A stretch of DNA of 33,450 nucleotides from Planctomycetaceae bacterium (GTDB lineage: Bacteria; Planctomycetota; Planctomycetia; Pirellulales; UBA1268): contig CANGGT010000020.1 of the NCBI GenBank assembly GCA_947453375.1, positions 1 to 33,450 on the forward strand, written 5' to 3'. Positions 7,201 through 33,002 of this stretch are shown in pieces. The position numbers and the translations under genes are program-made. The notes beneath the pieces are model-generated. The model saw only the letters and a program-made list of their open reading frames with translations, searched no databases and was not told the origin of the DNA. Within the stretch, counting starts at the first letter, position 1. Each line of letters opens with the position of its first letter.

Positions 7201-7439
7201 ATCTGCGTCAGCCCCGGCACTTGGCCGAACTGCCGCTCGAGCGGCGAGGTGACGCTCGAGGCGATCACCTCCGGGCTCGCCCCGGGATAGAAGGTGAGCA
7301 CCTGGATCGTCGGATAGTCGACCTGCGGAAGCGCCGACACCGGAAGCTGACGGTAGGCGACGACCCCGACGAGGACGAGCGCCACCATGAGGAGGCTCGT
7401 CGCCACCGGCCGGAGGATGAAGGGCCGGGAGAGGTTCAT
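4281..7439 (-). CDS. mdtB: RND-family efflux transporter permease (MdtB-like, HAE1)
   Basis: MNLSRPFILRPVATSLLMVALVLVGVVAYRQLPVSALPQVDYPTIQV..., GFVVDDAIVMIENI, IVKKNAIMMIDFAMEAER. Confidence 0.9.
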   Translation of the reverse strand: MNLSRPFILRPVATSLLMVALVLVGVVAYRQLPVSALPQVDYPTIQVLTFYPGASPEVIASSVTSPLERQFGQVPGLTQMTSSSSEGCSVIVLRFDLALDIDIATQQVQAAINSAAAVLPRDLPNPPVYTKTNPADAPILTLALTSDTLPLTKVQDLADTRLAQKISQLSGVGLVSISGGQKPAIRIEVNPTALSSLGMNLEDLRGALVQASVNQAKGSFDGRRQAFTIAANDQLLTSDQFRELIIGYRNGSAVRLVDVAEVVDGAENVRQAAWMNDIPAVIVNIQRQPGANIIAVVDSVKALLPQLEASLPAAVQVHVLTDRTLTIRASIEGVQHELLLTIALVVFIIFLFLRSVTATIIPSVAVPLSLVGTFAVMYALGYSLNNLTLMALTISTGFVVDDAIVMIENIVRYVEEGETPLAAALKGSAEIGFTIVSLSVSLIAVLIPLLFMGDIVGRLFREFAVTLSVTILVSAAVSLTLTPMMCAVLLSQRAGGSAHGGGGHGSAEPGLFTRLYAATLRFVLAHQATTMATFVATLVATWYLAQIVPKGFFPVQDTGVILGISEAPQSISFEAMRDRQLELNRVILTDPAVESLSSFIGIDGSNVTLNSGRIQINLKPLEERGISAVEVIRRLQGELAAVEGIGLFMQPVQDLSVETRVSRTQYQVSLESPDAMELAAWAPRFVARLQQIPELADVASDQQTDGRQARLVIDRDSASRLGITPQMIDDALYDAFGQRQISMLFTQLNQYRVVLEVAPGFRDTPQDMAQMYVRAGVPGRPGETRVPLGAVTRLEETSAALAVNHQGQFPVVTVSFNLAPGVALGRAVDAIETARYDLGMPAGIQTAFQGTAAAFRASLANQGWLILAAIITVYIVLGVLYESTVHPITILSTLPSAGVGALVALLVCRTDLSVISLIGVILLIGIVKKNAIMMIDFAMEAERRGIGGQRVTPREAIEQACLLRFRPIMMTTMAALLGAVPLALGSGVGSELRRPLGITIIGGLLVSQLLTLYTTPVIYLWFDAVGRWARGSVGREATDQAVDPAGMAEGVR

Positions 7440-9493
7440 CGTTCGATGCCGCTGGCGGCGGCAGGCTGCCGAGGCGGCCGGGCCGCCGGCTGTGGAGCAT
7501 CGCCAGAGAGGCTCAGGGCGATCGCACGCACCATCGCTTCATAGGGACCGCGGTAAACGCCCCGCATCCCCTCGGGCGAAACGTGCTGGCCGTCGGTGAA
7601 ATAGACGTGAGACCGGTCGCCGATGAGGCTCTTTCCGTCGGCGGTGAACCAGGCATCGCGGGCCGGCGTGATCCGGACATCGGCCTTGGCAGCAGCGGCA
7701 GCGAACGCCTCGAGAGTCGCGCCCTGTACGCGGTCGTACGCGGCGCGATCGACGCCCTGCGGAACCGGCCGCCCGAGCAAGGCCGACCAGACAAGCCAGC
7801 GGATCGGATCGGCGGACTGGTAGGGCTGAGGTTCGATGAGCCACACCGTCGCCCCGGATTCGTTGAGGACCCGGCACGTGTGCACGAGGCTTCGCGTGAG
7901 CGTGGCCTGTCCGTCCGACGGGGCCTCTGGAGCGAACGTGGCTTCATCGAGCGTCGCCGATACCACGGATGGCCAGTCGGCGATGAGGAGAACGTTCTTG
8001 ATCCGATCGGCCCGGACGCGCGCAACGACGCTGTCGGCCCATTCGAGCCACGGCCTCCTCGCGAACGCCGGCATCGGCCGGGTCGTCCCAAGCAGTGGGA
8101 AGTGGGCATTACGGGTCGCCCAGGCTCCGCGGATTCCGTGTTCCTCGAAAAGGTCGTCGAGAAGCCCCAGGGAGGCCGCCGAGTGGCTGTCTCCCCACAC
8201 GAGACAGTCGACCGGCGATCCGGCAGCCGTGGTCCCGTCAAACTTCCTGACGAGGAGTTCGGGCCTGCGGACCTCCACCATTGCCTGAAAACGCTGGTCA
8301 TTTCGGTCGTTCTCCGTGGACCGGAGATAGGTAGCGGCCCGCGGTGGAAAGCGCCCCGGCAGTCCGCCACCGGCCATGATCCCGACCGAAGTGACGATCA
8401 GCACGACGGCGGCGCCGACGACGATCCGCAGCGCCTCGACGAAACCGATCGAGCGCATCCCGTGGCGGAACGGGGTCTCGATCCAACGCCACGACAGCCA
8501 TGCAAGCGCAAAGCTTGCGACATAGAGCATCACCGTCACGCTTGTCGGCATCACCCCCCAGGTGCCATAGCTCGCGTAAACATGGAGCGGCCAATGCCAG
8601 AGATAGAGCGAGTAGGAGATCAGGCCGATCGCCACCGCGACTGGAGAGGAGAGGACTCGGCCGACAAGCGTCCGGTCGTGCGTGCCGGCGAAGATCAGGA
8701 AGCAGGCCCCGAGACAGGGCGGAAGGGCAGCGAGCCCTGGAAACTGCATTCTCTCGACGTAGGTGACGCACGGGACAACGATCAAGCCGAGGCCGAGCAG
8801 CGCCAGGGCATTCGCCCGCGCGGCTCCCAGCGGTCGACGGGGTGTCTCGAGCGCTGCAAGCCCGCCCAGGAGAAGCTCCCACGCCCGGAACGGGAGGAGG
8901 AAAAACCCCGCCATGCCTGCCCGGTAACTCGTGGCGTAAACCGAGAAGACGAGCGAGACGACCATCGCCCCCCAGAGGATCGCCCGCACCAGCCCCCGGC
9001 GGCGCATCGGGAGGCGGGCGAAGAGGAGCGGATAGACGAGATAAAACTGCTCCTCGACGGCCAACGACCACATGTGGAGCAGCGGCCGCGGACGATGGGT
9101 GTCGAAGTAGTTCATGTTTCGCCACTCGTAGACATTGGTGAGCATCGTCTGCTGGGCGATCGTCGCTTTCGCGAGTGGCACCAGATCGTTCGGCATGAGA
9201 AGGCACAGCCCGGTTACGAGCGTCACGATCGTGACGACAAGTGACGCCGGAGCGATGCGCCGCAGGCGACGCGTCCAGAAGCGACGCAGCGAGAAGGTTC
9301 CCTGTTCCACTTCTCGGGCGAGAATGCCGGTGATGAGGAATCCCGAGATGACGAAGAAAACGTCGACGCCGACAAACCCGCCGGACAGCGCGCCTCCGAA
9401 GTGGAAGACGAGCACGGCGAGGACTGCGACGGCCCGCAGGCCGTCGATGTCGGGACGATAGTGCGCGGGCATCTCGGGGAGCGAGTTGGTCAT
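7436..9493 (-). CDS. Acyltransferase 3 family membrane protein with C-terminal SGNH domain (OafA/YrhL-like)
   Basis: YRPDIDGLRAVAVLAVLVFHFG..GGFVGVDVFFVISGFLITGIL, LLHMWSLAVEEQFYLVYPLL; SGNH blocks VWGDSHSAAS and YFTDGQHVSPEG. Confidence 0.92.
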   Translation of the reverse strand: MTNSLPEMPAHYRPDIDGLRAVAVLAVLVFHFGGALSGGFVGVDVFFVISGFLITGILAREVEQGTFSLRRFWTRRLRRIAPASLVVTIVTLVTGLCLLMPNDLVPLAKATIAQQTMLTNVYEWRNMNYFDTHRPRPLLHMWSLAVEEQFYLVYPLLFARLPMRRRGLVRAILWGAMVVSLVFSVYATSYRAGMAGFFLLPFRAWELLLGGLAALETPRRPLGAARANALALLGLGLIVVPCVTYVERMQFPGLAALPPCLGACFLIFAGTHDRTLVGRVLSSPVAVAIGLISYSLYLWHWPLHVYASYGTWGVMPTSVTVMLYVASFALAWLSWRWIETPFRHGMRSIGFVEALRIVVGAAVVLIVTSVGIMAGGGLPGRFPPRAATYLRSTENDRNDQRFQAMVEVRRPELLVRKFDGTTAAGSPVDCLVWGDSHSAASLGLLDDLFEEHGIRGAWATRNAHFPLLGTTRPMPAFARRPWLEWADSVVARVRADRIKNVLLIADWPSVVSATLDEATFAPEAPSDGQATLTRSLVHTCRVLNESGATVWLIEPQPYQSADPIRWLVWSALLGRPVPQGVDRAAYDRVQGATLEAFAAAAAKADVRITPARDAWFTADGKSLIGDRSHVYFTDGQHVSPEGMRGVYRGPYEAMVRAIALSLSGDAPQPAARPPRQPAAASGIER

Positions 9494-11179: not shown

Positions 11180-13852
11180 GTGGCCAGTTTCCAGCGGATC
11201 GCCTGGCTCGCGATCGTGGGCGTTTCCCTGGCATGGCCGGCCGACGCCCCGGCGGTCGTTCTGACGGTCACTTCCCAACGACTCGACGTCGCCAACGCGA
11301 CCCAGCGCTGGTCGTGCCTCCGCGACGGCGACGGACGGATTGGAATCCTCACCTCGGTCCGCGACGATGCGACCGACGCCCCGCCGTGGCGACCGCTCTT
11401 CGACGGCCTCAGGCCGCTGGTCGAGGGAGCAGATTTCGATCTCCACCCCGAGGGCTGGACGGTCGTGGAGCAGTCGCCATCGCGGGCTGTGATCCTCCTC
11501 ACCGGGAAACACCCCGACCACGGCTACCCCTGGGATGCACGTCTGGAGGTCGATGACCGGACAACGCTCGTCCGCCTGGTCGTCACCTGCCGGCTTGACC
11601 GCCCGATCGTGCTCCGCGATCTCGAGCCCCAGTTCGCTCTGTGGATGAACAGGCCCTCCGTCAAAGTCGCCCTCGACCAGGGACCGGGAAGCATCGATCA
11701 GGGTCCGGCCGAGAGACAGTGGGGCAACTCGTTCCCCGCGGCCTACCTCTGGGAGGATGGCAGCGAGGCGGCGCTGTTCGTCGACGGAGGAGCGCTCGAC
11801 TGGATGTCGCCGAGGAATCTCTACCGCTTCCGCGACTGCCGGGTCGCGACCTTCACCGATCCCCCCCGCGGCCAGACCGGGCTCGGCTTGCAGGTCGTGA
11901 AGCGCAACTTCCACGAGTTGGCCGCCGGCGACATCGTCTGGGACGTCTGGATCCATGCCGCGCGGGCCCCGGAGCCGACGCTCCCGGAAGCGCTCTCCCG
12001 GCTCATGGCATCGTTCGCCCCGCTCCACCCGTCGACCGCGCCCCCCCTCGTCGACCGCTTCACGGGCCGGACTCCGTCGTGGCGGACGATTGCCGCCGGC
12101 GTCGATGTCGATCTCCGCCGCCGCGGCATCGCGTGGGATGACGTCCCGCTCGGCGACGCAGCCTGGAACGACGCGCCCCTCTTTCCCGAGGAGACGGTGA
12201 CCTCGCTCCGGGTAGCCACCGACTATGGCCTCGCCTCGTCGTGCGATCCGGCCCGCGACCGAGCGCACGTCGCCGACGGCTGGGACTTCTCCACCTGCCA
12301 CAACGGGCTGGGCTGCTGGCTCGGGCACGACCGGATCGTTCCCGATGCCGACCGACGCGCCTTTCTCCGCGAGAAGCTCCGCGGCCTCAGGCTGTTCTAC
12401 GACTCGAGTTCGGGGCTCATCCGCCACGGCACGCGAATCCCGCCCCATGTCGGCGACAAGGAGATGGCCTGGCAATCGCTCATGTTCGCGATCGAAACGG
12501 CGCGGATCTGGCAAACGCTCGAACGCGACGACGTCGATCCGGCCATCGGTGGGATCGCGCTTGCCGGGACCGATGGCCTCGTCGAGCTGGCCGTCGCCAA
12601 CGACCACCTCTTCCCGCAATGGTTCGATCCCGTCACGAAGCTCCCCCTGCCACAGGCCGATCAGCCGGAGCTCGGAGTGGTGTTCGAGCCGTGGCAACTC
12701 GGCAGCTACGCGTGGCTGCTCACGGAGGCACACGGCATTGACGGCGATCCCCGGCGGATCAAAGCGGCGGCCGCGGCGCTGACGCGCCTCTCCGATCCGC
12801 GACCGTGGCGGGTGGCGAATGCCCGCTATGACGTCACATACGACGATCCTACCTCGTTTCCCGTCACCGAGATCTTCGGCAATGCCTGGGGAATCGCCGC
12901 CTGCTGCCGCCTCCGCGCGATCACCGGCGAGGATCGCTACGACGCCGTCGGCGACGCCTTCCTCGACACCCTCCTCCGCCTCACCCCCTGGTACGAGAGC
13001 GCCCTCCGCGACGACCCGCGCGACCGGGCGGTGCGGAACGCGGGGCTGTTCCGCAACCACGCCGGAGCATTCACCGGCTCCCCCTGGGAAAACGTCGAGG
13101 CGGCGCTCGCCCTCTCGGTGAGGATCCGCGACGACCTGCTCCGCGACCGCGTGCCGCGGACACCGCTGCTGGGGCTGATGAATCTCCAGCGGGTGAACGC
13201 CGCGACATTCTTCCCCCGCTGTGTGCCCGACGCGGCACAGGCCTGCCCGCGCCTCACCGACCATCCGGCCTCATCCCTGCCGATCGAGGATGCCTACACG
13301 CCGGAGCATGGCGGCCTCCATGGCGGCCTCGGCCGGGCGGTCTATATGGCCGGCGCCGCCTTCGCCTACGAACGGCTCTTCGAGGCGCTCGGCCTCGTCG
13401 ACGACCCCGACCTCATGCTCCTGAACCTCGACGCCGTCGAGGGGGCCGAGGCCTCGCTCCGCGGCCTCGAGCGGCACTTTGTCCTTTTCAACCCCACCGG
13501 CGACACGCGTCGCGTCCGGCTTTCGATCGCCCCTCTCCCCGCGGGCCACTACGAGGTCGGAATCGGCGCCGGCAACGCGATTCTCCACACGGCCGACGAC
13601 CTTCGCAGCGGCTTCTTCCTCGACGTGGCGGCTGGCGACCATCTTCTCATCGCGGTTCGGAAGGGGGACGCCGCAGCGGATTGGGACCGGCTCGCGGCCG
13701 ACCGGCGCGACGCCGACAGCCTCGCTGCGGAGTGGGCCGCACTCCACCGCGACCTTCGCCGCGACGGCCCGTCGGAATCGCTTTTTCTCCGCCGCGACGC
13801 CTGGCGGAACGCCCGGGCCAGCTTTCGCGAAGGCGGTGCCGTTCCCCCGTGA
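11180..13852 (+). CDS. Large secreted protein of unknown function, glycosidase-like architecture suspected (helical-barrel-like middle region)
   Basis: In-frame GTG at 11180 gives a signal peptide (V/M)ASFQRIAWLAIVGVSLAWPADAPA; the listed ORF start at 11036 would translate through the 21-bp repeats; middle region DGWDFSTCHNGLGCWLGHDR..DKEMAWQSLMFAIETARIW, C-terminal beta-rich FVLFNPTGDTRRVRLSIAPLPAGHYEV. Confidence 0.65.
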   Translation: MASFQRIAWLAIVGVSLAWPADAPAVVLTVTSQRLDVANATQRWSCLRDGDGRIGILTSVRDDATDAPPWRPLFDGLRPLVEGADFDLHPEGWTVVEQSPSRAVILLTGKHPDHGYPWDARLEVDDRTTLVRLVVTCRLDRPIVLRDLEPQFALWMNRPSVKVALDQGPGSIDQGPAERQWGNSFPAAYLWEDGSEAALFVDGGALDWMSPRNLYRFRDCRVATFTDPPRGQTGLGLQVVKRNFHELAAGDIVWDVWIHAARAPEPTLPEALSRLMASFAPLHPSTAPPLVDRFTGRTPSWRTIAAGVDVDLRRRGIAWDDVPLGDAAWNDAPLFPEETVTSLRVATDYGLASSCDPARDRAHVADGWDFSTCHNGLGCWLGHDRIVPDADRRAFLREKLRGLRLFYDSSSGLIRHGTRIPPHVGDKEMAWQSLMFAIETARIWQTLERDDVDPAIGGIALAGTDGLVELAVANDHLFPQWFDPVTKLPLPQADQPELGVVFEPWQLGSYAWLLTEAHGIDGDPRRIKAAAAALTRLSDPRPWRVANARYDVTYDDPTSFPVTEIFGNAWGIAACCRLRAITGEDRYDAVGDAFLDTLLRLTPWYESALRDDPRDRAVRNAGLFRNHAGAFTGSPWENVEAALALSVRIRDDLLRDRVPRTPLLGLMNLQRVNAATFFPRCVPDAAQACPRLTDHPASSLPIEDAYTPEHGGLHGGLGRAVYMAGAAFAYERLFEALGLVDDPDLMLLNLDAVEGAEASLRGLERHFVLFNPTGDTRRVRLSIAPLPAGHYEVGIGAGNAILHTADDLRSGFFLDVAAGDHLLIAVRKGDAAADWDRLAADRRDADSLAAEWAALHRDLRRDGPSESLFLRRDAWRNARASFREGGAVPP

Positions 13853-13913
13853 CGCCCCGCAACCTCGGGCACACTTTTCCCATCCGACCCTCCGGCGCTG
13901 CATAATCCCTCCC

Positions 13914-15989
13914 ATGCTTCCGCGCAAGATCAAGCTCCGGGTGACGATCTTCGTCGGGGTGCTCCTCATCACCACGGCGCTGGCCTCGCTCCTCCTTCTC
14001 CTCAACTGGCTGTCGTCCGCCCGGGCCGTGCGGACCTTCACACGCGACCTCCTCGATCCGGTCGCACTCCAGGTCACCGAGCAGACGCGCAACATGCTCG
14101 ACAGCGCCGCCTCGGCGGCCGAAGTCGCTGCCGCGGTGATCGCCGATGCCCCGCCGGAACTCCGTCCCAGAGCCCTCGACGTCGTCGGCTTTGCACTCCT
14201 GTCGAGTGAGCCGGCGATTGCGTACGTACAACTCGGTCTCCCCGACGGCGGCTGGGTCCGGATCTCCCGCAGCGATGACGGGAGCCTCGAGTCGCACCTT
14301 CGACTCATGTCGGGCGCCAACGCCACCGCTCCGCGCACGATCCACCGCCGCCGTGCCCCCGGTGCCGAACTCGATGCCATTCTCGGGCAAACCGAAGACA
14401 TTGACGACTATGACCCCCGCACGCGCCCCTGGTACTCCGGCGCGCGTGCGGCCACCGGCGTGTACCTCACCGATGCCTACGCGCACTTCCCCGACCAGGC
14501 GATCGTCGTTACCGCAGCCATCGCTCTCCCGGCTGAAGAAGGCGTCGTCGCGGTGGCAATCACGCTCACCGACCTGGCCGAGATGCTCTCGAGGCTGCGG
14601 GTCGCCGGCCGACCGATCCGGGGCTTTGTCCTCGATCCCCAACAGCGGACGCTGGCGGCCGCAGGGGCAGCGCCGGTCCGTGCCGACAGTGGGAACGTGA
14701 CCCTTCCCAGGCTGGCGGATACCGATCCACCGGTCCTCCGGGCCCTCGCCAACAACTCCGAGTTCCAGAAGGCGATCGACAACGATACGGAAGCCTCGAT
14801 CGCCTTCGTCGCCGAGGGCGCCCGCCAACTCGCCGTCGTGCGCCCGATCGCCATTCATGGGCGTGAATGGCTCGCCGGGGCGGTGGTCGCCGAGGACGAC
14901 TTCCTCGGCACCATCCGCCACGACATCACCCGCAGCATTCTCGTCAGCCTGGGGATCCTGGGGCTGTTCCTCGTCGGCGCGGCGCTCCTCGCCAAGTCTA
15001 TTTCCGCGCCGCTCCACGCGATCGCCGTGGAGACCGAGCACCTCCGCCGCCTCGATTTCTCCGACCGCCCCCTCCCCCACACCGTCTTCGAGGAGATTGC
15101 CGACGTGAACGGCGTCTTCGGGAGCCTCAAATCGGGCTTGAGAGGCTTCGGGAAGTACGTCCCGCTCAAGCTCGTCCAAGGGATGCTCGCCGACGGCACC
15201 GAGCCGGAGCTCGGCGGCCGCTCCGAGGAGCTGTCGATCCTCTTTTCCGACATCAACGGCTTCACAGGCTTTGCCGAAGAGATCGGCGCGGCCGCCACCG
15301 CGAAGGTCCTTGGCGACTATCTCGCCGGGATCGCCGGGATCGTCGCCGACGAGTCGGGGACCGTCGACAAGTACATCGGCGACGGGATGATGGCCTTTTG
15401 GAACGCCCCCCGCCCCGTCGCCGACCACGCCGAGCGGGCCGTGATCGCGGCGATCCGCTGCCGCGATGCGATTGCCGCCATGCCCCGTGCCGCCCAGCTC
15501 CACACGCGTTTCGGGATCCACACCGACCGGGTGATCGTGGGCAACTTCGGCGCTCCCGATCGCTTCGCCTACACCGCCATCGGCGATGGCGTGAATCTCG
15601 CCGCCCGCCTCGAGCGCGTGAACAACGAATATGGCACGGCGATCATCGCCAGCGACCAAACCCGCCGGCTTGCCGGCGATTCCATCGCCTGGCGGCGTCT
15701 CGACCGGATCGCCGTGAAGGGGAAGCGGGTTCCGACGGAGATTCACGAGGTCCTCGGCCTCGTCGGCCTCGTCCCCGAGCGCATCCTCGCCGCGGCAGTC
15801 GAATACGAAGCTGGCCTCGAAGCCTACTTCACGCGCGACTTCATCCGCGCCGTGGAACGCTTCGACGAGGCGCTCCGCCTTCGCCCCGACGACGCCGCAG
15901 CGACGATCCTCCGCGAGCGTGCCGTCGCCTACGCCGCCTTCCCGCCCTCAGGCCAATGGGACGGCGTCCACGTGATGCTCACGAAGTGA
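13914..15989 (+). CDS. Class III adenylate/guanylate cyclase with extracytoplasmic Cache domain, HAMP linker and C-terminal TPR-like tail
   Basis: TM LRVTIFVGVLLITTALASLLLLLNWL; dCache motif DPRTRPWYSGARAATGVYLTDAY; HAMP after second TM; catalytic LSILFSDINGFT..DKYIGDGMMAFWNAP..YTAIGDGVNLAARLE; start ATG 13914 chosen over the ORF start. Confidence 0.88.
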   Translation: MLPRKIKLRVTIFVGVLLITTALASLLLLLNWLSSARAVRTFTRDLLDPVALQVTEQTRNMLDSAASAAEVAAAVIADAPPELRPRALDVVGFALLSSEPAIAYVQLGLPDGGWVRISRSDDGSLESHLRLMSGANATAPRTIHRRRAPGAELDAILGQTEDIDDYDPRTRPWYSGARAATGVYLTDAYAHFPDQAIVVTAAIALPAEEGVVAVAITLTDLAEMLSRLRVAGRPIRGFVLDPQQRTLAAAGAAPVRADSGNVTLPRLADTDPPVLRALANNSEFQKAIDNDTEASIAFVAEGARQLAVVRPIAIHGREWLAGAVVAEDDFLGTIRHDITRSILVSLGILGLFLVGAALLAKSISAPLHAIAVETEHLRRLDFSDRPLPHTVFEEIADVNGVFGSLKSGLRGFGKYVPLKLVQGMLADGTEPELGGRSEELSILFSDINGFTGFAEEIGAAATAKVLGDYLAGIAGIVADESGTVDKYIGDGMMAFWNAPRPVADHAERAVIAAIRCRDAIAAMPRAAQLHTRFGIHTDRVIVGNFGAPDRFAYTAIGDGVNLAARLERVNNEYGTAIIASDQTRRLAGDSIAWRRLDRIAVKGKRVPTEIHEVLGLVGLVPERILAAAVEYEAGLEAYFTRDFIRAVERFDEALRLRPDDAAATILRERAVAYAAFPPSGQWDGVHVMLTK

Positions 15990-16839: not shown

Positions 16840-19800
16840 ATGGCCACGCCCCTCACGCTCGCCACGCGTCCCCTCCTCCGGCTCGTCTTCTGCTGCGCGA
16901 TCTACGTCGCCCAAGGGATTCCCTTCGGCTTCGTGACGGTGGCCTTGGCGGCGTGGCTGGCCAGTCACGGCGGCGGGGAGAACGCCGTTGGCACATGTAT
17001 TGCGATGGCCGTCCTCCCCTGGAGCTTCAAGTGGCTGTGGGGCCCGGTCGTCGATTCAGGCCTGGCTGCGGCGCTCGGCCGCCGGCGACCGTGGCTGATC
17101 CTCGCGCAGTCGATGATGATCGTGACAGCGCTGTTGTTGCTTCGCGCCGGCGGCGACGCCGCGCTCCTCGGCTGGCTCGTCCTCCTCCACAACGTGTTCG
17201 TGGCCCTCCAGGACGTGGCGATCGACGCCCTCGCCGTCGACATGCTGGAAGGGAACGAGCGCGAGCGAGCCAGCGGGATGATGTACGGCTCGTCGTATGT
17301 CGGCACGATGCTCGGCGGCGCGGGGCTCGGCCTCGTGATGGCCCGCTTCGGCCTTCCCACTGCCGTTCTCGCCCTCGCCGCGATTCAGGCCGTCACCCTC
17401 GCCGCCGTCCTCGCGATCCGCGAACGGCCGACGGATCGGTTTTTCTTCGGGAGCTCGCGAGCGTCGCAGGCCGCCGCCCCTGCTCCCCATGGCCTCGGCC
17501 CCGCAGCCCTCCTCTTCCAATTGGCGATCGCCATGGTGCGCCCCGCGGCGCTACGAACGGGTATCGGCGCGGTGCTCATGAAGATCCTCCCGGCGCTGCT
17601 CTACGTGACAATGACGGTGCAGCTATTCAAGCAGCTCGGTTGGTCGGAGGCCCGCTTCGCCGAGGTCAGCGGTGGCTTCGGCAATCTCCTCGGCCTGGGG
17701 GCGGCGGTCGCTGCCGGCTTCCTCGCCTCTGTTATCGGCCCCAAAACCACCGCCGTCGCCGCCAATTCGATCCTCGCCGCCTCCTGGATCCTCCTCGCGG
17801 CCAAGCCCTCGCTCTGGGAGTTCGAGATGACGATCTATCTCTGGTTTGGGATCCACGAAGCCTGCCTGGCATTTCTGTCGGTGTCGCTCTTCGCCCTCTT
17901 CATGCGGGTCTCGACGCCGGCGGTGGCCGCGACGCAGTTCACCGCCTCGATGGCGCTGATGAATCTCGCGACGAGTTGGGGCTCGTGGTTCGCCGGGCCG
18001 GTGAGTGGCTTCTTCGACGCCCCGACGACGTTTCTCCTCGCCGGCCTCCTCCAGCCGCTCGGCGCGATCCTCCTCCCCGACGTTCGCTCGATCGGCCGCG
18101 GGCCGGCGCCCCTTGCCGTCGACGGCCATCTCCCCCCCCGCGGCACCGCCGCGGCGACGAGCGAAGCCGGTCCGCCGCCGGGGGCGAGCTTGGCGACAGG
18201 CCCGGTCGCCGCCTTGATCGGTGGGCTCCTCGTCGCGACCACGGTCTGCTTCTCTGTACCGGCCGAAGCCGAGCCCGCCAGTGAATGGACCTCGGCGGCC
18301 GAGCGTTCCCAGGCAACGCTCATGGAGCGGGAGACCTTCTGGGACCGATGCGATCAGGCGTGGTTTCTCGACAACGTTCCCCTCCTCGATTGCCCCGATC
18401 CCGACATCGAGACGACGTGGTGGTATCGCTTCGAACTCCTCACCAAGCATCTCACCTACGGCTCGCCCGACACCGGCTACGTGTTCACTGAGTTTCTCGA
18501 CCGGCCGTTCTGGTCGGGAGCCTACGGCGCGATCTCCTGCCCTGCCGGCCACCAGCTCGCCGAGGCCCGCTGGCTCCGCTCGCCACGGGTCGCCCGTGAC
18601 TATGCCCGCTCCTGGGTGAACACCCCCGGCGCCCAACCGCGCAACTATTCCACCTGGCTTGCCGATGCGGTGTGGGGCGTCCATCTCGTCCATCCCGCTC
18701 GTCTCCATCTCGGCGCGGCCGGCCACCCTGCCGCCACGGCTGCGACCGTCTTTCCCGGCGACATTCTCCCCGGCCTCGAAGCGAACACGCAGGCCTGGCA
18801 CGATCGCCACTTCGTCCCCGCCACCGGACTTTACTGGCAGGTGGGGCACGACGACGGGATGGAGTTCAACATCAGTAGCCGGCAGACGACCGACATCCTC
18901 CGCGGTGCGCCGAGCTATCGGCCGAGCTTCATCGCCTACCAGTGGGCCGATCTCCAGGCGCTTGCGCGCATGGAGGATCTCCTCGGAGAGCCCGCCAAGG
19001 CTGCCGCCCGCCGGGCCGCTGCCGACACGCTGCGGGAGAAGATGGAAGCAGCGCTCTGGGACGAGCGGCGGGGCTTCTTCCTTGCCGCCTTCCGCGACGA
19101 TGAAACGCTCGACGGCGCCACCGTCACCGCCGGGAGCCGGATCTACGACAGTGGCCGCTTCGCCGGCAGCCCCCATGGCCGCGAGTTGATCGGCTACGTC
19201 CCCTGGCAGTTCGACATGCCGTCGCGGGGCAAGGGATTTGAAGAGGCCTGGAAATATCTCGGCGATTCCGAGTTCTTCCAAGCGCCCTTCGGCCCCTCCA
19301 CGGTCGAGCGGCACGACCCGCTGTTCATCCTCCAGCCCCACTGCTGCTGGTGGAGCGGCCAGAGCTGGCCCTACGCCACGACGCAGACGCTCAAGGCGTT
19401 GGCCAACGTTCTCCAGTTTCGCTCCCCCGGCTTCGGCAACGAGGGCCCGGGGCTCCAAGAGGTGGTGTCGGCCAAGGATTACGTCTCGCTTCTGAAGACC
19501 TACGCCCGCACCCACCGGAAGAACGGTCGGCCCTACCTCGCCGAAGCCTGTCATCCCGACACCGGGAGCTTCGAGGGGCACGATGCCTACAACCACAGCG
19601 AGCACTACTTTCATTCGGGCTACGCTGATCTCGTGATCACGGGGCTTGTCGGCCTCGTCCCCCGCCCCGACGACACGCTCGAAGTTCGCCCCCTGTTTCC
19701 CCCGGACTGGGATTTTCTGCGGCTCGACCGGGTGATCTACCGGGGCCACGAGGTGGCGGTGGTGTGGGACCGCGACGGCACGAAATATGGCCTCGGCCCC

Positions 19801-20943
19801 GGCCTCCATCTCCTCGCCGAGGGCCGCGTGATCGCCTCGTCGCCGGGGGTGGGACGGCTGACGGCCGCGCTTCCGCCGGTGTCGGCGGCGCTCGTCGCGG
19901 CAGAACTCGTCGACGATGGCCTGAAGCCCGGCATCGTGCCGACGCGGGTCAACGTCGCCGTCAACAACGATGGCACCTACTTCCCCCGGATCGTGCCTGG
20001 CTCGATCCGCCCCGGCACATCCCCGTCAGCGATGGCCGACGGCGTCGCCTGGTATCTTCGGTCGCCGCCGAATCGCTGGGAGAGCGCCACGGCCGGGGTG
20101 CCCGAGACGCTCGTCCTCGATCTCGGAATTTCACGCCGGGTCGACACGCTCGCGCTTTCCCTCCTCGACGACGAGCCCGAGCTCCTCGCCGGCACGGCCG
20201 ACGCCGCCGTGCCGGGCCGCGACGCCCTGCCCTCAGACGTCCGGGCCCCGAAGGCGATCGCGGTCGAGACGTGGACAGGCAGCGGATGGGACATGCTGCC
20301 GATCGAGGCGCGGTTGCCAGAGACCCCCGCGGGGCACCTGGCAAATCACATCCATTTCGCCCCCCGCGAGATCACGAAGCTGCGGATCACACTCGTGCCC
20401 CGCCCAGGGATGCGCGTCGGGCTTTCGGAAATGGAACTGTGGGGAGGCGCGATCCTGCCGCTCGAGCCCGCGCCCGCGCCGGCCGGCAACCTCGCCTTCA
20501 ATCCCGGCAGCGAAGGCTCACCCGAATACCCAAAGGCGAGCGCGTCGCACACCTCGCGCTACGACCGGGTCGAACGGGCCATCGACGGGATCGTCTCCTA
20601 CCAAACAAACCCGAACAACCGCTGGACAGCCTACGAATCACCAAACGCGACGGACTGGCTGGCGGTCGATTTTGGCGAGCCGAAGACCTTCTCCCGGCTG
20701 GAGCTGGCCCTCTACGACGACCGTGGCGGCGTCCAGCCGCCGGAGCGGTTTCATGTCGAGGTCTTCGTGGACGGGGTATGGCAGCCCGTCGAGAACGAGG
20801 TCCACTTGCCCGAGCAGCCACTCGGCAACGCCCTCAATGAGGCGCGCTTTACGGCGGTGACGGCTCGGCAGATGCGCGTCGTCTTCACGCATCGCGGAGC
20901 GGCCCGCAGCGGTGTCTCGGAGTTCTTCGTATGGGAGGAATGA
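16840..20943 (+). CDS. AmpG-like MFS transporter fused in frame to a secreted MGH1-like/(alpha/alpha)6 glycoside-hydrolase-like region plus two F5/8-type-C-like domains
   Basis: ATG 16840; MFS part YVAQGIPFGFVTVALAAWLASHG..WSFKWLWGPVVDSGLAAALGRRRPWLILAQ; junction VAALIGGLLVATTVCFSVPAEAEP; hydrolase part WQVGHDDGMEFNIS, YVPWQFDMPSRGKGFEEAW, HCCWWSGQSWPYATTQTLKAL, DAYNHSEHYFHSGYADLVI; C-terminal discoidin-like ASHTSRYDRVERAIDGIVSYQTNPNNRWTAYESPNATDWLAVDFGEPKTFSRLELALYDD. Confidence 0.82.
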   Translation: MATPLTLATRPLLRLVFCCAIYVAQGIPFGFVTVALAAWLASHGGGENAVGTCIAMAVLPWSFKWLWGPVVDSGLAAALGRRRPWLILAQSMMIVTALLLLRAGGDAALLGWLVLLHNVFVALQDVAIDALAVDMLEGNERERASGMMYGSSYVGTMLGGAGLGLVMARFGLPTAVLALAAIQAVTLAAVLAIRERPTDRFFFGSSRASQAAAPAPHGLGPAALLFQLAIAMVRPAALRTGIGAVLMKILPALLYVTMTVQLFKQLGWSEARFAEVSGGFGNLLGLGAAVAAGFLASVIGPKTTAVAANSILAASWILLAAKPSLWEFEMTIYLWFGIHEACLAFLSVSLFALFMRVSTPAVAATQFTASMALMNLATSWGSWFAGPVSGFFDAPTTFLLAGLLQPLGAILLPDVRSIGRGPAPLAVDGHLPPRGTAAATSEAGPPPGASLATGPVAALIGGLLVATTVCFSVPAEAEPASEWTSAAERSQATLMERETFWDRCDQAWFLDNVPLLDCPDPDIETTWWYRFELLTKHLTYGSPDTGYVFTEFLDRPFWSGAYGAISCPAGHQLAEARWLRSPRVARDYARSWVNTPGAQPRNYSTWLADAVWGVHLVHPARLHLGAAGHPAATAATVFPGDILPGLEANTQAWHDRHFVPATGLYWQVGHDDGMEFNISSRQTTDILRGAPSYRPSFIAYQWADLQALARMEDLLGEPAKAAARRAAADTLREKMEAALWDERRGFFLAAFRDDETLDGATVTAGSRIYDSGRFAGSPHGRELIGYVPWQFDMPSRGKGFEEAWKYLGDSEFFQAPFGPSTVERHDPLFILQPHCCWWSGQSWPYATTQTLKALANVLQFRSPGFGNEGPGLQEVVSAKDYVSLLKTYARTHRKNGRPYLAEACHPDTGSFEGHDAYNHSEHYFHSGYADLVITGLVGLVPRPDDTLEVRPLFPPDWDFLRLDRVIYRGHEVAVVWDRDGTKYGLGPGLHLLAEGRVIASSPGVGRLTAALPPVSAALVAAELVDDGLKPGIVPTRVNVAVNNDGTYFPRIVPGSIRPGTSPSAMADGVAWYLRSPPNRWESATAGVPETLVLDLGISRRVDTLALSLLDDEPELLAGTADAAVPGRDALPSDVRAPKAIAVETWTGSGWDMLPIEARLPETPAGHLANHIHFAPREITKLRITLVPRPGMRVGLSEMELWGGAILPLEPAPAPAGNLAFNPGSEGSPEYPKASASHTSRYDRVERAIDGIVSYQTNPNNRWTAYESPNATDWLAVDFGEPKTFSRLELALYDDRGGVQPPERFHVEVFVDGVWQPVENEVHLPEQPLGNALNEARFTAVTARQMRVVFTHRGAARSGVSEFFVWEE

Positions 20944-23474: not shown

Positions 23475-25817
23475 CTATTTCTCTTCCATCACCCAAACGC
23501 CACTCCAATCCGAGGGAGGTGGCGTGTCGGTAAGGATCCGGCAGCGCTCCAGATAGAGCTTCGCTGCCTTGTCTGCCGGGTTGAGCGAAAGGACCTTCTC
23601 GAACAACTCACGTGCCGGCCCGAAGGCCCGCGCGCGGTACTTGTTGAGCCCGTCGCGGAAGTGGCCGAGGCAATCGACGAGATGCGGGAACGTCTCCTCG
23701 GTGTGGTGATCGAGGATCTCGTAGACGCCCACCGGCTGGGTCTTCCCCTTCACGACCACCAGATCGATGTCCCGGGCCCGGTAGGTGCCGCGGAGCTTCT
23801 TGTAGGTGTATTCGCTGACGAGGATCTGCGCACCGTACTGCTTGCAGGCCGACTCCAGCCGGGCGGCAAGATTCACGCCGTCTCCGATCATCGTGTAATC
23901 CATCCGCTTCTTCGAACCGATATTTCCCGACACCACGACGTCGGTGTTGAGCCCGATGCCGATCTCGATCGGCAGTTTCCCTTCGGCGACACGCTGCACA
24001 TTCCAGCGACGGAGCTCCTTGATCATGGCGATCGAGGCCCGCATCGCCCGATCGACGTCGTCGTCATGGGCCACCGGGATCCCGAATCCGGCCATGATGG
24101 CATCGCCGATGAACTTGTCGAGCATCCCCCCCTCGTGCTGGATGCAGTCGACCATGAGCGTGAAATACTCGTTCAGCATCGCCACCGTGCCCTGGGCGCC
24201 GAGCCTCTCGGTGTGCGTGGTGAAGCCGCGGATGTCGGAGAACAACACCGTCGCTTCCACCGACTGCCCCCCGAGCACGTCCGCGCCAGAGGCGACGAGT
24301 TTGTCGGCGATACCCGGATCCATGTAGCGCGACATCGTCGACTTGAGCCGCTTTTCGCTGGAGATATCCTCGATCATGAGCATCGACCCGATCCGCTTGT
24401 GCTCGACCGAAGCGAGCGGCAGCACGGTGACATTGCTCGAGATCGTCTCCTCCCCGAACACGAGCTCGGCATCCATCAGCACCTCAGGCGTGCCGCTCGA
24501 GCTGACGGTCTCGAGCTTTCCGAGCACCCAGGCGTTGCCGCCGGCGAAGAAATCGGCCACCGGCTTGTGGAGCACCTCCGCAGGCGTCGCCCGGAGAATC
24601 CGCAGACCAGCCGCATTACAGGTGACGATTTTTCCCTTGTCGTCGATGGTCACCACTCCATTCGACATCGATTCGAGCATCGCCTCGCTGTAGTTCTTCA
24701 TGTTCTGCACGTCGGCGAACAGCTTGGCATTCTCGAGCGCGATCGAGATTTGGGCGGTGAACGCCCGCAGACGCGACTCATCCTCGGCCGTGAACGGGCC
24801 TCCGCGCTTGTTGAGCACCTGCGTGACGCCGATCACGGCCCCGAGCTTATTGATGATCGGCACGCAGAGGATCGAGCGGGTGAAATAACCGGTACGTTTG
24901 TCGAAGGCGGGATTGAACCTGAGATCGGCATAGGCGTAGGGGATATTGATCGACTTGCCCGACGTGAAGACGGCGCCTGCGATGCCGAGGTGATTGGGCA
25001 GACGGATCTGCATCGACTCCAACCCCTGACCAACCTCCGACCACAACTCCTGAGTCTGCTCGTCGTGGAGAAAGAGCGTGGACCGGTCGGCGTTGAGGAG
25101 CCGAGTCGCCTCCCCCATCACCCTGCGGAGGAGCGACCCGAGCTTGATGTCGGCGGTGACCTCCGAGACGATCTCGACAAACTCCATCTCCTGAGCCCGC
25201 ACCGCCTTCATCCGCTCGATGAATTGGGCCCCCTGCAGGGCGACGGTTCCCTGGGTGGCCATCGCTTCGAGGACCTCGAGGTCTTCCTCGTCGAACGCTC
25301 CGTCGATCTTGTTGATCGCCTCGACGACGCCGATGATCTCACCCTTCACCGTCTTGACCGGCACACAGAGGATGCTCCGAGTCACGAATCCCGTCTGCTC
25401 GTCGTTGGCCCGACTGAACCGCGGATCGGCATACGGATCGGCGATGATCAGCGACTCGCCACTGGTGAACGCGTGGCCCGCGATGCCGGCGGTGTTGAGC
25501 AGCCGGATCTCGCGTCTGACGTTGCCCTGTGCGACGCGTGAATAGAGCTCGTTCGTGGTCGGATCGTTGAGAAACAGCGAGCCCCGTTCGGCGCCGACTT
25601 CTCTGGTGGTCATGTCGACCAGCGCGTGGAGGACGTCGTCGAGCGTGTCATAGGCGGCCATGCGCCGCGACACCTCGAGCAGCAGTTCGATCAACCGGAC
25701 CCTCTGCGAACGAGGAGAGGTGATGCCCCTGCCCCTGCCCTTGGCCGGGCGATCGGCCGGACTTACGGCTGCTACCCGGCGCGCGCCCGGCGGCGAAGGC
25801 GTTTCGTCTGCTGTCAT
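23475..25817 (-). CDS. Class III adenylate/guanylate cyclase, GAF-GAF-PAS-cyclase architecture with TPR-like C-terminal tail
   Basis: Two GAF repeats (RGSLFLNDPTTNELYSRVAQG..; RSTLFLHDEQTQELWSEVGQG..), PAS-like MLESMSNGVVTIDDKGKIVTCNAAGLRILR, catalytic ATVLFSDIRGFT..LDKFIGDAIMAGFG..YTMIGDGVNLAARLES; ATG 25817 is preceded by AAGGA at SD spacing, in preference to ATG 25835. Confidence 0.9.
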   Translation of the reverse strand: MTADETPSPPGARRVAAVSPADRPAKGRGRGITSPRSQRVRLIELLLEVSRRMAAYDTLDDVLHALVDMTTREVGAERGSLFLNDPTTNELYSRVAQGNVRREIRLLNTAGIAGHAFTSGESLIIADPYADPRFSRANDEQTGFVTRSILCVPVKTVKGEIIGVVEAINKIDGAFDEEDLEVLEAMATQGTVALQGAQFIERMKAVRAQEMEFVEIVSEVTADIKLGSLLRRVMGEATRLLNADRSTLFLHDEQTQELWSEVGQGLESMQIRLPNHLGIAGAVFTSGKSINIPYAYADLRFNPAFDKRTGYFTRSILCVPIINKLGAVIGVTQVLNKRGGPFTAEDESRLRAFTAQISIALENAKLFADVQNMKNYSEAMLESMSNGVVTIDDKGKIVTCNAAGLRILRATPAEVLHKPVADFFAGGNAWVLGKLETVSSSGTPEVLMDAELVFGEETISSNVTVLPLASVEHKRIGSMLMIEDISSEKRLKSTMSRYMDPGIADKLVASGADVLGGQSVEATVLFSDIRGFTTHTERLGAQGTVAMLNEYFTLMVDCIQHEGGMLDKFIGDAIMAGFGIPVAHDDDVDRAMRASIAMIKELRRWNVQRVAEGKLPIEIGIGLNTDVVVSGNIGSKKRMDYTMIGDGVNLAARLESACKQYGAQILVSEYTYKKLRGTYRARDIDLVVVKGKTQPVGVYEILDHHTEETFPHLVDCLGHFRDGLNKYRARAFGPARELFEKVLSLNPADKAAKLYLERCRILTDTPPPSDWSGVWVMEEK

Positions 25818-25845
25818 CGTTCGTTCCTTGTCCATGTCTTGGCTC

Positions 25846-26658: not shown

Positions 26659-28140
26659 TCACTTCGCCGGCGCGGCTCGTCCGACCATCTCCGGCTGCTT
26701 CACCGGACCGAAGCCGACGTTCGCTTCCGACTCCATTCGCACCTCATCGTCCGTCATCGTCAGCCGGACGGTCGTCACGAACGGCGTCTCGACAAAGCAG
26801 AGCCGCAGCGTGAACGTCTCTCCCTCCCAGCCCCCGGCGACGGCCGCGGGGCGCGGAGGATAGCCTCCCCAGGCGACGTCGCCACGGCGCCACGCCCCCC
26901 GGCCGCACTCGATGCGGTGCTCCTTTCCGGCGGTCCGAAACACGACCGCATCCCCGTCAGTGCCAGGAACGATCGTCACCGTTTCGAGTGAAGCGCCGTT
27001 CTCGCCGAAGGTGAACAGCTTCCCGGAAACCTTCGCAGGCACCGCGCCGGCCGGCGGCAGGGGCACCTGGAGCGCGGCGAGCTTGGCGGCGAGCCTTCCT
27101 GCGGCCGCGTCGTCTGCCGGGAGCGGCACGCGTCGGAAGGCCGGGAGGAGCTTTTCCCAGACGATGTCGAGAACGCGCTGCATGTCGCGCGTGCCCGACG
27201 TGATCGCCACGACGGCATCCTCCTCCGGCAACACGATGCAATATTGGCCGAAAGCCCCGTCGCCGCGGAAGGCCCCGTGCCGGCAACGCCAGAACTGGTA
27301 ACCGTAGCCCTGGTCCCAGTCACTGTCGGGATTGCTCCCGTTGGCCACCTGCCGGCTCGTCGCTTCCTCGACCCAGGCCGCGGGGACGATCTGCCTCCCC
27401 TCCCACGTTCCCTTCTGGAGGAGCATCTGGCCGAAGGTCGCGATGTCGCCGGTGCGGACACTCAACCCGAAGCCACCGACGCTCATCCCCTCTGGGCTCT
27501 CCTCCCAGGTCGCCCCCTCGATGCCGAGTGGCGCAAAGAGCCGCGGCCCGAGATAGTCGATGAGCTTCTCGCCGGTCGCTTTCTGGACGATCGCCGACTG
27601 CATGAAGGTCGCCGGTGTGTTGTAGAGGAAGTGGGTCCCCGGCTTGAACGGGACGGGATGGGCGAGGAACTGCCGCACCCACGGCTCGCTCCGCAGATGC
27701 GGCGGCTCCCCCTGATGCCCCGTCGCCATGCGGAGGAGGTCAGCCACACGCATCGCCTTCAGATGGGCCGACGGATCTGCCGGGGCTTCGGCCGGAAAGA
27801 ACGTGAGCACTGGATCATCGATCCGCAGCTTCCCCTCCGCGGCCGCGATTCCCACGGCCGTCGACGTAAAACTCTTGGAGAGGGAATAGAGCTGGTGGCG
27901 CAGCTCCGGCTTGTACGGCGCCCACCAGCCCTCGGCGACCACATGGCCATGCCTCACGACCATCACGCTGTGGAGACCATCGGCCACCGTCGCGTCACCC
28001 GCCGCGTCGAGCGCCTCGACGAACGCGAGGAGGTCGACCGACGACACCCCCTGCGCTTCAGGCGCGCTCCGCGGCAGCTCCGCGGCGGGGACGACGGCAC
28101 TCGACAGCGCCAGGAGAAGCAGACAAACGAGACGGGGCAT
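26659..28140 (-). CDS. Secreted serine hydrolase, beta-lactamase (class C)-like family
   Basis: Signal MPRLVCLLLLALSSAVVPAAE; SxxK motif YSLSKSFTSTAVGIAAAEGKLRIDDPV; FLYNTPATFMQ Tyr-Asn-like motif; C-terminal extra domain. Confidence 0.85.
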   Translation of the reverse strand: MPRLVCLLLLALSSAVVPAAELPRSAPEAQGVSSVDLLAFVEALDAAGDATVADGLHSVMVVRHGHVVAEGWWAPYKPELRHQLYSLSKSFTSTAVGIAAAEGKLRIDDPVLTFFPAEAPADPSAHLKAMRVADLLRMATGHQGEPPHLRSEPWVRQFLAHPVPFKPGTHFLYNTPATFMQSAIVQKATGEKLIDYLGPRLFAPLGIEGATWEESPEGMSVGGFGLSVRTGDIATFGQMLLQKGTWEGRQIVPAAWVEEATSRQVANGSNPDSDWDQGYGYQFWRCRHGAFRGDGAFGQYCIVLPEEDAVVAITSGTRDMQRVLDIVWEKLLPAFRRVPLPADDAAAGRLAAKLAALQVPLPPAGAVPAKVSGKLFTFGENGASLETVTIVPGTDGDAVVFRTAGKEHRIECGRGAWRRGDVAWGGYPPRPAAVAGGWEGETFTLRLCFVETPFVTTVRLTMTDDEVRMESEANVGFGPVKQPEMVGRAAPAK

Positions 28141-28173: not shown

Positions 28174-29940
28174 TCAATGACTGTGCCTCGGCACCGTTCG
28201 ACAGACGTCGCGGAACGTGCAGGCGAAGTCGAGGCAGCCGCCGGTGTGCAGCTGCCCGACGTGGTCGCGGTAGAGCTGCTGCCAGGGGGTGGCGCCGGGG
28301 GGAACGGTGTCCCAGGCCGAGGTGTCGCGCGCGGCCCATTCAGCCGCCGGCACGAGCGCATCGACAGCCCGCTTGCCGAGATCGACGCGGACCCGGTCGC
28401 CCGTCCGCAGCCGGGCCAGGCCACCACCGGCAAAGGCCTCCGGAGAGGCATTGAGGATCGAAGGGCTCGCCGCGGTGCCACTCTGCCGGCCGTCGCCGAG
28501 CGTCGGCAGCTCCGAGATCCCGCGGCGGACGAGCGCCTCCGGCGGAAGCATGTTGACCACCTCGCCACTCCCGGGGAAGCCGAGCGTGCCACAGCCCCGG
28601 ATGACGAGGAGCGTCGTCTCGTCGATGGCAAGCGTCGCGTCGTCGATGCGGGCGTGGTAATCCTCGGGGCTGTCGAAGACGACCGCCCGGCATTCGAACG
28701 TCTCCTCGGCCCCCGGCTCCGAGAGGTAACGGCGACGGAAGTCGGTGCTGATGACGCTCGTCTTGAGGAGCGCCGCCTCGAAAAGATTCCCGGAGAGGAC
28801 GAGGAAGCCGGCCTGCTCGCGGAGCGGCGCGGCGACAGAACGGATCACCCGCCCGTCGGGGGGCGGGGCCGCGGCGACGTTCTCCGCCACGGTCTTCCCG
28901 CTCACCGTCAGCGGCGCGCCGTCGAGGAGGCCATGCCGGAGGAGTTCGGCCATCACCGTTGGTAGACCACCGGCCCGATGAAAATCCTCGCCGAGGTGCG
29001 CGCCGGCCGGTTGGAGGTCGACCAGCAGCGGCAGGGCATGGCCGTGGGTCTCCCAATCGCGGATGTCGAGGTCGATTCCGGCATGGCGGGCGACGGCGAT
29101 GATGTGCGGCGGGCAATTCGTGCTCCCGCCGAGGGCCGTGTTGACGCGGATGCCATTGAGGAGCGCGGCGCGGGTGAGGATCGTCGCCGGCCGGAGATCC
29201 TCCTCCACCATCGCCACGATTCTTTTTCCCGCCGCATGGGCGGCCTGACCGCGCTCGCGGTAGGGGCCGGGGATCTGGGCCGAGCCGGGGAGGGCCATCC
29301 CGAGCGCCTCGGCGAGGCAGTTCATCGACAGCGCCGTTCCCATCACGTTGCAATGGCCGACGCTCGGCGCCGAGGCGGCGAGGAGATCCATGAACTTCCG
29401 CTCGTCGATCTCGCCCGCCGCGAGGCGCCGCCTGGCCTCCCAAATGATCGTGCCGGCGCCGGCCACCTCGCCGTCGAGGTAGCTGTTGAGCATCGGCCCG
29501 CCGTTGAAGATCAGCGCCGGGAGGTTGCAGGTGACCGCGGCCATGAGCGCTGCCGGCGTCGTTTTGTCACACCCGGTCGTGAAGATCACGCCGTCGAGGG
29601 GATAGCCGTGGAGGATCTCGACGAGACCGAGGTAGGCGAGATTGCGGTCGAGGGCGGCCGTCGGCCGGCGGGCCGATTCCTGGATCGGGTGCATCGGGAA
29701 GACCAGCGGCAGCCCCCCGGCATCGCGGACGCCGTCGCAGAGCCGCTTCACCGACTCGAGATGGACGCGGTTGCAGGGGGTGAGGTCGCTGGCCGATTGG
29801 GCGATGCCGATCACGGCCCGCCCCCCCTGGAGCTCCCCCGGGGTCAGTCCCGAGTTCAAAAACCGCTCGAGGTACAGCGCCGTCATCCCGGGATTGCCCG
29901 GTTCGTTCCACCACTGTTCCGACCGCAGACGCGTCGTCAT
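28174..29940 (-). CDS. IlvD/Edd family dehydratase (dihydroxy-acid or, more likely, sugar-acid dehydratase)
   Basis: [105 protein letters not shown]; start ATG at 29940 overlapping the upstream stop. Confidence 0.88.
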
Positions 29941-31421
29941 GCCTCCACTCCCGGCTTCGGTATCGAGATCACGCGAGTCTCGAGGAACTCGCGGATCCCC
30001 TCCTCCCCTCCCTCGGCGCCGATCCCGCTTTGCTTCACGCCACCGAAGGGAATCTCGGCCTTGAGGGGCCGCCATTCATTGACGCCGACGATCCCCGCCT
30101 CAAGCGCCGAAGCGACGCCGCGGAAGCGTCCCAGATCGGTGCCATAGACGTAGGCCGCCAAGCCGTAGGGGGTGGCATTGGCACGCTCGACGGCTTCGGG
30201 AAGCGTTCGGTAGGAGAGGAGCGGAATCACCGGTCCGAAGATCTCCTCGCTCGCCAGCCGCATCGAGTCACTCACGCCGGCCACGACCGTCGGCGGCGAG
30301 AAGTTTTCTACCGTCAATCCAGGGGTCGCTTCAAAGCTCCGGTTCTCCGCCACGATCCTGGCCCCCGCCGCCACCGCTTCGTCGACGCGGCTCCGCACAT
30401 CGCGGCTCGCCGCGGCATGAATCAGCGGCCCGGCATCGACGCCCTCAGCGAGGCCGTTGCCGACGCGGAGGGCCGCGATCCGGGCGGCGAGCCGCTCGAT
30501 GAGCTCGGCCTCGCGGTCGCCATGGACGAAGATCCGGTTGGCGGTCACGCACACCTGCCCTGAGACGAACATCTTCAGTCGGACGAGTTGGTCGGTGACG
30601 AAGTCCAGATCGGCGTCGGGGAGGATGATGAAGGGGGCGTTGCCACCGAGTTCGAGCGAGAGCCGCTTGATCCCCGGCGCGGCGGCAGCCATCAGGCCGC
30701 TGCCGGTCGCGGTCGAGCCGGTGAGGCTGAGCACGCGGACGCGCTCGTGGGCCGCGAGGACGGGACCGACGACGCTCCCCTTTCCCGGCACGATCTGAAG
30801 CACGCCTGCCGGCAGCCCCGCCTCGGCCAGGATCGGCGCCAAGGCAAGCGCCACCAGCGGCGTCGCCTCCGCTGGCTTCCACACCGCCGTGCATCCGGCC
30901 GCGAGCGCCGCGGCCACTTTCTTCGCCCCCTGGGCAAGCGGGAAGTTCCACGGGGTGATCAGCCCGGCGACCCCGGCCGGACGCTGCTCGACGAGAAACT
31001 CCCGCCCCGCCTCGGGATGGGGGACGATCCTTCCCTGAACGCGCCTCGTCTCTTCGCCAAACCACTGGAAGAAGCTCGCCGCGTAGTCGACTTCGCCGGC
31101 TGCCTGGAGGTAGGGCTTGCCCTGCTCCGCGGTGAGGAGGCGGGCAAACTCGTCGCGGCGAGAAAGCAAGGCCGCCGCCGTGGCTTTGAGGATCTCGCCT
31201 CGCGCGGCCGCTGGAATCGCGCGCCAGCCACGCCCGGCACGATCCGCCCCCTCGATCGCTGCCGTGACGGTCGCGGCATCGGCACGCCCCACCTCGGCAA
31301 GCGTCTCGCCGGTGGCGGGGTTGCGGACGGTGAACACGTCGCCGCCGCGCTGATCAATCTCCCGCCAAGCGCCATCGATCCACGGGGCGGGCTCGAACCA
31401 GAACGGTGGGCAAGTTTTCAT
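29937..31421 (-). CDS. NAD(P)-dependent aldehyde dehydrogenase (succinate/ketoglutarate-semialdehyde dehydrogenase-like)
   Basis: GVAGLITPWNFPLAQGAKKVAAALAAGCTAVWKPAEATPL, LSLTGSTATGSGLM, LELGGNAPFIILPDADLDF, GQVCVTANRIFVH, EEIFGPVIPLL, PFGGVKQSGIGAEGG. Confidence 0.9.
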   Translation of the reverse strand: MKTCPPFWFEPAPWIDGAWREIDQRGGDVFTVRNPATGETLAEVGRADAATVTAAIEGADRAGRGWRAIPAAARGEILKATAAALLSRRDEFARLLTAEQGKPYLQAAGEVDYAASFFQWFGEETRRVQGRIVPHPEAGREFLVEQRPAGVAGLITPWNFPLAQGAKKVAAALAAGCTAVWKPAEATPLVALALAPILAEAGLPAGVLQIVPGKGSVVGPVLAAHERVRVLSLTGSTATGSGLMAAAAPGIKRLSLELGGNAPFIILPDADLDFVTDQLVRLKMFVSGQVCVTANRIFVHGDREAELIERLAARIAALRVGNGLAEGVDAGPLIHAAASRDVRSRVDEAVAAGARIVAENRSFEATPGLTVENFSPPTVVAGVSDSMRLASEEIFGPVIPLLSYRTLPEAVERANATPYGLAAYVYGTDLGRFRGVASALEAGIVGVNEWRPLKAEIPFGGVKQSGIGAEGGEEGIREFLETRVISIPKPGVEA

Positions 31422-31509
31422 GATGGATGTCGGACGGCATGTCAGACGGTGAGAAGGAGGCTCGTCATGTGGTCTTGATTCACAGTCGCGATGCGGGCTG
31501 TCGAAGAAC

Positions 31510-32670: not shown

Positions 32671-32888
32671 TCGCTTGCTCCCCGCGTGGCTCCCCCGCCC
32701 GCTTCTCCCTCGCCAACCCACACTCAGGGGCGGAAAGCGTCGGAGCCGGATCGTACCAAACAGCCGCGAGCCGACGGGGCAACGCCATTCCCGTCGAATG
32801 GACAACGCCGGCGAGCCGCTCACGAACCGGCTGCTCTGGAACAGGCAGCGCCCTAAAAAAAGTCTCCTTGTTTCACAGCGCCGGTCGA

Positions 32889-32918: not shown

Positions 32919-33002
32919 CCGTCAAGGGGTGGATTTCCGAGGCGATCGTGCAGGCCTGCTGCCGCTCGCGACCCATCGCCCCCCGAAACGCGTACCACCG
33001 CC

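Follow-up and report, generated by a model that had tools for sequence, protein, structure and literature searches.

The window analyzed here, a stretch of 33,450 nucleotides of a planctomycete contig, contains at positions 16840 to 20943 of the forward strand a single gene, running from ATG to stop codon, that encodes a protein of 1,367 residues. Translation reveals no internal stop, in agreement with the preliminary description of this DNA, which had reported one uninterrupted frame. From the N terminus to the C terminus, the protein comprises a 12-helix MFS transporter, a proline-rich linker, a hydrophobic segment, a GH142-like glycosidase, and discoidin-like modules. The domain sizes estimated earlier were roughly correct, the MFS domain covering ~412 residues instead of ~430 and the part after the linker covering ~890 instead of ~900. 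The ATG at position 16840 is likely the start codon because the open frame in genome G008 is only three codons longer than the protein (1,370 versus 1,367). A profile search of the window's own genome detected no paralogues, the fused gene being the sole PF22422 copy and the sole AmpG-like copy. This genome is of the metagenome-assembled type (334 contigs) and has a GC content of 69%, at which 82 open codons are expected by chance in about 1 in 5 cases (estimated from base composition); an open junction in one genome is therefore weak evidence.

The transporter domain (residues 1 to 412; positions 16840 to 18075, forward strand) was assigned on the basis of profile matches spanning residues 15 to 410, Foldseek, and an AlphaFold model with 12 helices. 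Its best profile and fold matches fall in the AmpG/RhtX-FptX/SLC33 branch of the MFS, namely, TIGR00901 (AmpG; E value, 7e-27), RhtX/FptX (E value, 1e-22), and, among the many MFS structures matched by Foldseek, AmpG (8zgz; E value, 7.5e-12). The PF07690 (MFS_1) match scores 34.4 bits, above the gathering threshold of 33.4. The designation "AmpG-like" holds only loosely: AmpG is the closest in fold, but the TIGR00901 score of 94.1 bits (97.9 in the genome search) lies well below the curated cutoff of 350. The fused transporter also differs from this branch in being joined to an enzyme.

The half previously called hydrolase-like is indeed matched by PF22422, by Glyco_hydro_65C, and by BT_1020 of Bacteroides thetaiotaomicron (5mqr). 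The GH142-like catalytic region (residues 507 to 1006; positions 18358 to 19857, forward strand) includes PF22422, an MGH1-like glycoside hydrolase domain (residues 562 to 920; 228.6 bits against a cutoff of 27), and Glyco_hydro_65C (residues 944 to 996). BT_1020 is the nearest solved enzyme (E value, 8e-72; 38% identity over 442 aligned residues) and also the best Foldseek match of the enzyme half (E value, 6.5e-35), followed by HypBA2 (6m5a). The matched part of BT_1020 is a GH142 beta-L-arabinofuranosidase (PMC7263609). In the AlphaFold model (mean pLDDT of the enzyme half, 84.7), the enzyme has an (alpha/alpha)6 fold and, as in BT_1020, a C-terminal beta domain. Glu551 (positions 18490 to 18492, forward strand), present in 37 of 37 homologues, aligns with Glu694 of BT_1020, the putative catalytic residue of that enzyme (PMC7263609). 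The residue types of the BT_1020 pocket residues Tyr702, Gly805, Trp943, and His1019 mismatch at the published numbers; the numbering is apparently offset by one in the alignment, and therefore only Glu694 was used. Sequence, fold, and putative catalytic glutamate all indicate kinship to the BT_1020 catalytic domain. However, BT_1020 has ~650 further residues ahead of the matching domain and no transporter, whereas in the fusion the MFS transporter precedes the enzyme and discoidin-like modules come after it. The GH121 HypBA2 equivalog NF041578 scored only 70 bits against 3200, and the sequence match to 6m5a was partial.

The preliminary description had also assigned F5/8C-like modules to the C-terminal part. 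The second module (residues 1232 to 1355; positions 20533 to 20904, forward strand) is F5/8 type C (CBM32-like), with matches to PF00754 (E value, 2e-12; 47.7 bits over residues 1234 to 1353 against a gathering threshold of 28.2) and PF22633 (E value, 2e-11). The first (approximately residues 1035 to 1205; positions 19942 to 20454, forward strand) is a discoidin-like beta-sandwich predicted from the secondary structure of the model, with no Pfam match in the profile search.

In a set of 59 relatives, four additional genomes from the window's genus, which consists of lake planctomycetes, carry the whole fusion on one contig (80% to 91% identity), and six more genomes contain fragments of it, mostly ending at contig ends; one such fragment extends ~20 residues into the linker, where the contig ends. 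In one genome of the genus (~91% complete), neither half was matched, owing to either loss or an assembly gap. At the level of the class, 82 of 398 genomes contained the enzyme and 47 contained the transporter, and the two were joined only in the window's own genome, the sole listed member of its genus with a match in this sample. In the 81 other class genomes having the enzyme, it occurs alone, with its own signal peptide. Longer glycoside hydrolase frames (1,076 to 1,350 codons) were considered as further fusions in the class and rejected, as they are located in genomes with no MFS match. A sister genus of the same family has the transporter alone (55% to 58% identity), its frame stopping ~10 to 20 residues past helix 12 with no adjoining enzyme gene, and another genus of the family has the enzyme alone. 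The comparison of fused and split versions proposed at the outset therefore found the fused form in five members of the genus and split forms elsewhere in the genomes examined; judged from these sequences, the fusion is genus restricted in the genomes searched and joins two otherwise separate genes.

The proline-rich linker (residues 413 to 453; positions 18076 to 18198, forward strand), delimited in the alignment of the five genomes, is predicted to be disordered and contains the near-invariant sequence LPPRGTAAA..E.GPPPGA. All indels among the five fusions are multiples of three, and the variable sites of the linker are biased to the third codon position (11, 9, and 33 sites at positions 1, 2, and 3, respectively). 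The pN/pS ratio is 0.23 in the linker, compared with 0.20 in the MFS domain, 0.15 in the enzyme, and 0.64 in the hydrophobic segment, a pattern indicating that the linker is under purifying, protein-level selection. The earlier claim of a true fusion is upheld by the five intact copies, the low linker ratio, and a frame that is never broken, and none of the observations that the preliminary description had listed as refuting it was encountered.

The linker is followed by a 13th hydrophobic segment (residues 454 to 475; positions 18199 to 18264, forward strand) with a Kyte-Doolittle value of 2.04, the second highest in the protein; its sequence drifts, yet it is hydrophobic in all five genomes. 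Linker and signal-peptide- or transmembrane-like segment are both present as described previously. In the AlphaFold model of residues 1 to 1015, residues 417 to 478 are of low confidence (pLDDT of <50 for the linker and segment 13), and a short helix is predicted at residues 454 to 470; the model thus does not prove the topology. At the end of the segment lies a signal-peptidase-I-like A-x-A site (A475-E-A477; positions 18262 to 18270, forward strand), with a cut predicted before E478. The site reads A-E-A, A-A-A, A-D-A, or A-Q-A in four of the five genomes and I-R-A in the fifth, but the hydrophobic core is longer than usual for signal peptidase I (a run of 16 to 25 residues, versus a median of 13 in the split homologues). 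An arginine directly precedes the site in several genomes, and the alanine codons of the site are unchanged at synonymous positions as well.

A hydrophobic, signal-like N terminus occurs at the place of segment 13 in 78 of 79 distinct split enzymes, many of which have N termini ending in AAEP or A-x-A, some with the same AAEP ending as the fusion. For this reason, the junction is best read as the old signal peptide of the enzyme without its start codon, segment 13 corresponding to its h-region, in line with the ancestral signal peptide suggested initially.

We consider it likely that this one gene encodes both an MFS importer of the inner membrane and a GH142-like glycosidase that is exported. 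What the sequences show directly is that the two are fused in frame, that the fusion is confined to one genus among the genomes searched, and that a segment resembling a signal peptide has been retained. A 12-helix MFS protein ends in the cytoplasm. After the 12 MFS helices, the chain would accordingly be back in the cytoplasm. From that side, the conserved linker would feed segment 13, the old signal peptide, into the membrane, and the enzyme would emerge in the periplasm together with its sugar-binding modules. Because of this cytoplasmic end and the further hydrophobic segment, and in keeping with the exported appearance of all but one of the relatives examined, the enzyme is most likely exported beside its importer. 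Planctomycetes bring macromolecules, including polysaccharide, into the periplasm (PMC5394234), and a periplasmic glycosidase beside an importer therefore makes sense. The enzyme could trim sugars, by kinship perhaps beta-L-arabinofuranosides, off polysaccharide already inside the planctomycete periplasm, and the importer could take up the product. The fusion would set both parts at equal dose and would make a separate signal peptide unnecessary.

The exported enzyme might be released or remain attached. Because A-x-A survives in four of the five genomes, one gene may give two products, and whether signal peptidase cleaves after this site appears roughly evenly balanced. That segment 13 is an internal signal peptide, cut by signal peptidase I after A-x-A to give the transporter and a free periplasmic glycosidase, is a serious possibility, if somewhat short of an even one: four genomes keep the site, each with its own middle residue, I-R-A in the fifth would be tolerable, and the split homologues bear the same cleavable type of site. 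However, the invariance of the alanine codons at synonymous sites means that the conservation of A-x-A may be due to chance, and both the long hydrophobic run and the preceding arginine are more anchor-like. Segment 13 may instead be a permanent 13th helix that tethers the glycosidase to the importer in a single cut-and-import machine, as the preliminary description proposed, a reading almost as probable as cleavage; the longer hydrophobic run and the predicted helix favor it, and the conserved linker would act as a spacer, but the A-x-A site survives although a whole protein has no need of it.

It is improbable that segment 13 is not inserted and that the enzyme is cytoplasmic, as might be supposed from the uncertainty of AlphaFold about this segment, given its strong hydrophobicity and the exported appearance of 78 of the 79 split relatives. 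Even less probable is the production of two proteins by internal initiation, with the fused frame merely apparent. The window genome does contain TTG codons at positions 18190 and 18214 (codons 451 and 459), whose conservation as a start the preliminary description had named as evidence against a fusion, but both are missing from three of the five genomes, and internal initiation at these codons was rejected. No ATG, GTG, or TTG codon is common to all five genomes across residues 405 to 494, where one genome (L031) has none whatever, and the five first share a start-type codon at Met495, where the enzyme begins. The linker, moreover, evolves as protein, in a frame unbroken in all five. Conservation in five genomes and the lack of a common start codon make a conserved second start or an assembly error unlikely. 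An assembly artefact or binning chimera, conceivable for a metagenome-assembled-type genome in many contigs, was rejected as extremely improbable, as the identical junction recurs in five genomes that were assembled separately and derive from different samples, and the downstream synteny matches among relatives.

The two halves would probably cut and import a glycan. In Akkermansiaceae (Verrucomicrobia), including Roseibacillus, the same two protein types are encoded side by side at four loci (L097, L098, L100, and L102), and this adjacent pair independently supports a link between the functions of enzyme and transporter. It differs from the fusion in consisting of two genes, with the enzyme gene first and, immediately after it, an AmpG-like MFS gene, the product of which is ~36% identical to the fused MFS. 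Orthology of the two transporters was considered and not adopted, since the tree does not resolve it and the sister grouping is unsupported. The HypBA2 system of Bifidobacterium longum (GH121 and an ABC importer) works alike, an anchored enzyme freeing sugar for a dedicated importer (PMC7263609), and the fold of its enzyme is related to that of the fusion enzyme (second-best fold match). In contrast to the fusion, it consists of separate proteins in a Gram-positive bacterium, with an ABC importer and an enzyme anchored by itself.

No precedent for a glycosidase-MFS fusion was found in the literature searched, with most subscription journals outside the search; as far as the searched sequences and literature show, this is a new architecture of known parts. 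Cleavage and import are normally spread over several genes, whereas here the secondary transporter shares one gene with a glycosidase that is exported. There is an even chance that this one gene links the cleavage of glycans in the periplasm with uptake through a secondary transporter. Its product would be either a 13-helix transporter to which the glycosidase is permanently tethered, with the cleavage product passed on, or a bacterial polyprotein from which the enzyme is freed by a cut at the internal signal peptide behind the transporter. The persistence of split forms in relatives allows the states before and after fusion to be compared. The gene also offers a natural test of whether a signal peptide placed behind 12 transmembrane helices serves as an anchor or is cleaved as an internal signal, and the fusion hints at the cargo of an orphan AmpG-like transporter subfamily.

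The substrate may perhaps be beta-L-arabinofuranosides, on the basis of GH142 kinship and the retained putative catalytic glutamate. Against the proposed coupling, no sugar-uptake operon was found around the fusion gene in the window, where the nearest annotated genes encode cyclase-domain, DUF1559, and DUF2330 proteins. An Fe-alcohol dehydrogenase, an aldehyde dehydrogenase (SSADH/KGSADH-like), and an IlvD/Edd-type dehydratase (PRK13017) are encoded in a row at positions 28174 to 33387 (reverse strand), 7 to 12 kb downstream of the fusion and on the opposite strand, possibly as a sugar-acid oxidation cluster; a search of the window's own genome gave several IlvD/Edd paralogues and no L-arabinose isomerase match. 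In one genome of the sister genus, the transporter gene follows genes for an aldo-keto reductase and an L-fuconolactonase-like protein. Taken together, these observations are weakly consistent with an L-sugar being broken down oxidatively, whereas other neighborhoods point elsewhere. Assignment of a substrate from neighboring genes was abandoned as inconsistent, the L-fuconolactonase-like gene (one genome), YegS (three), and hydroxyproline epimerase (two) being in disagreement.

The solo transporter gene of the sister genus adjoins, divergently, the lipid kinase gene yegS in three genomes (L202, L203, and L204). Two more distant solo AmpG-like MFS genes (L170 and L172; genomes G376 and G147) lie beside a 4-hydroxyproline epimerase gene and perhaps encode hydroxyproline-related transporters; in G376, genes for a D-amino-acid dehydrogenase-like protein and for a GntR regulator are close by as well. 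In the window, adenylate/guanylate cyclase-domain genes flank the fusion at positions 13479 to 15989 (forward strand) and 23475 to 25835 (reverse strand), one of them with GAF and PAS sensors; the second, together with the DUF1559 and DUF2330 genes, is syntenic in relatives. A gene at positions 26659 to 28140 (reverse strand) encodes a beta-lactamase-fold protein with a match below the cutoff to 3-succinylated cholic acid synthase. At positions 7436 to 9493 (reverse strand), an acyltransferase-3 domain is fused to an SGNH domain, beside two RND pump genes and a gene for an HlyD-type adaptor.
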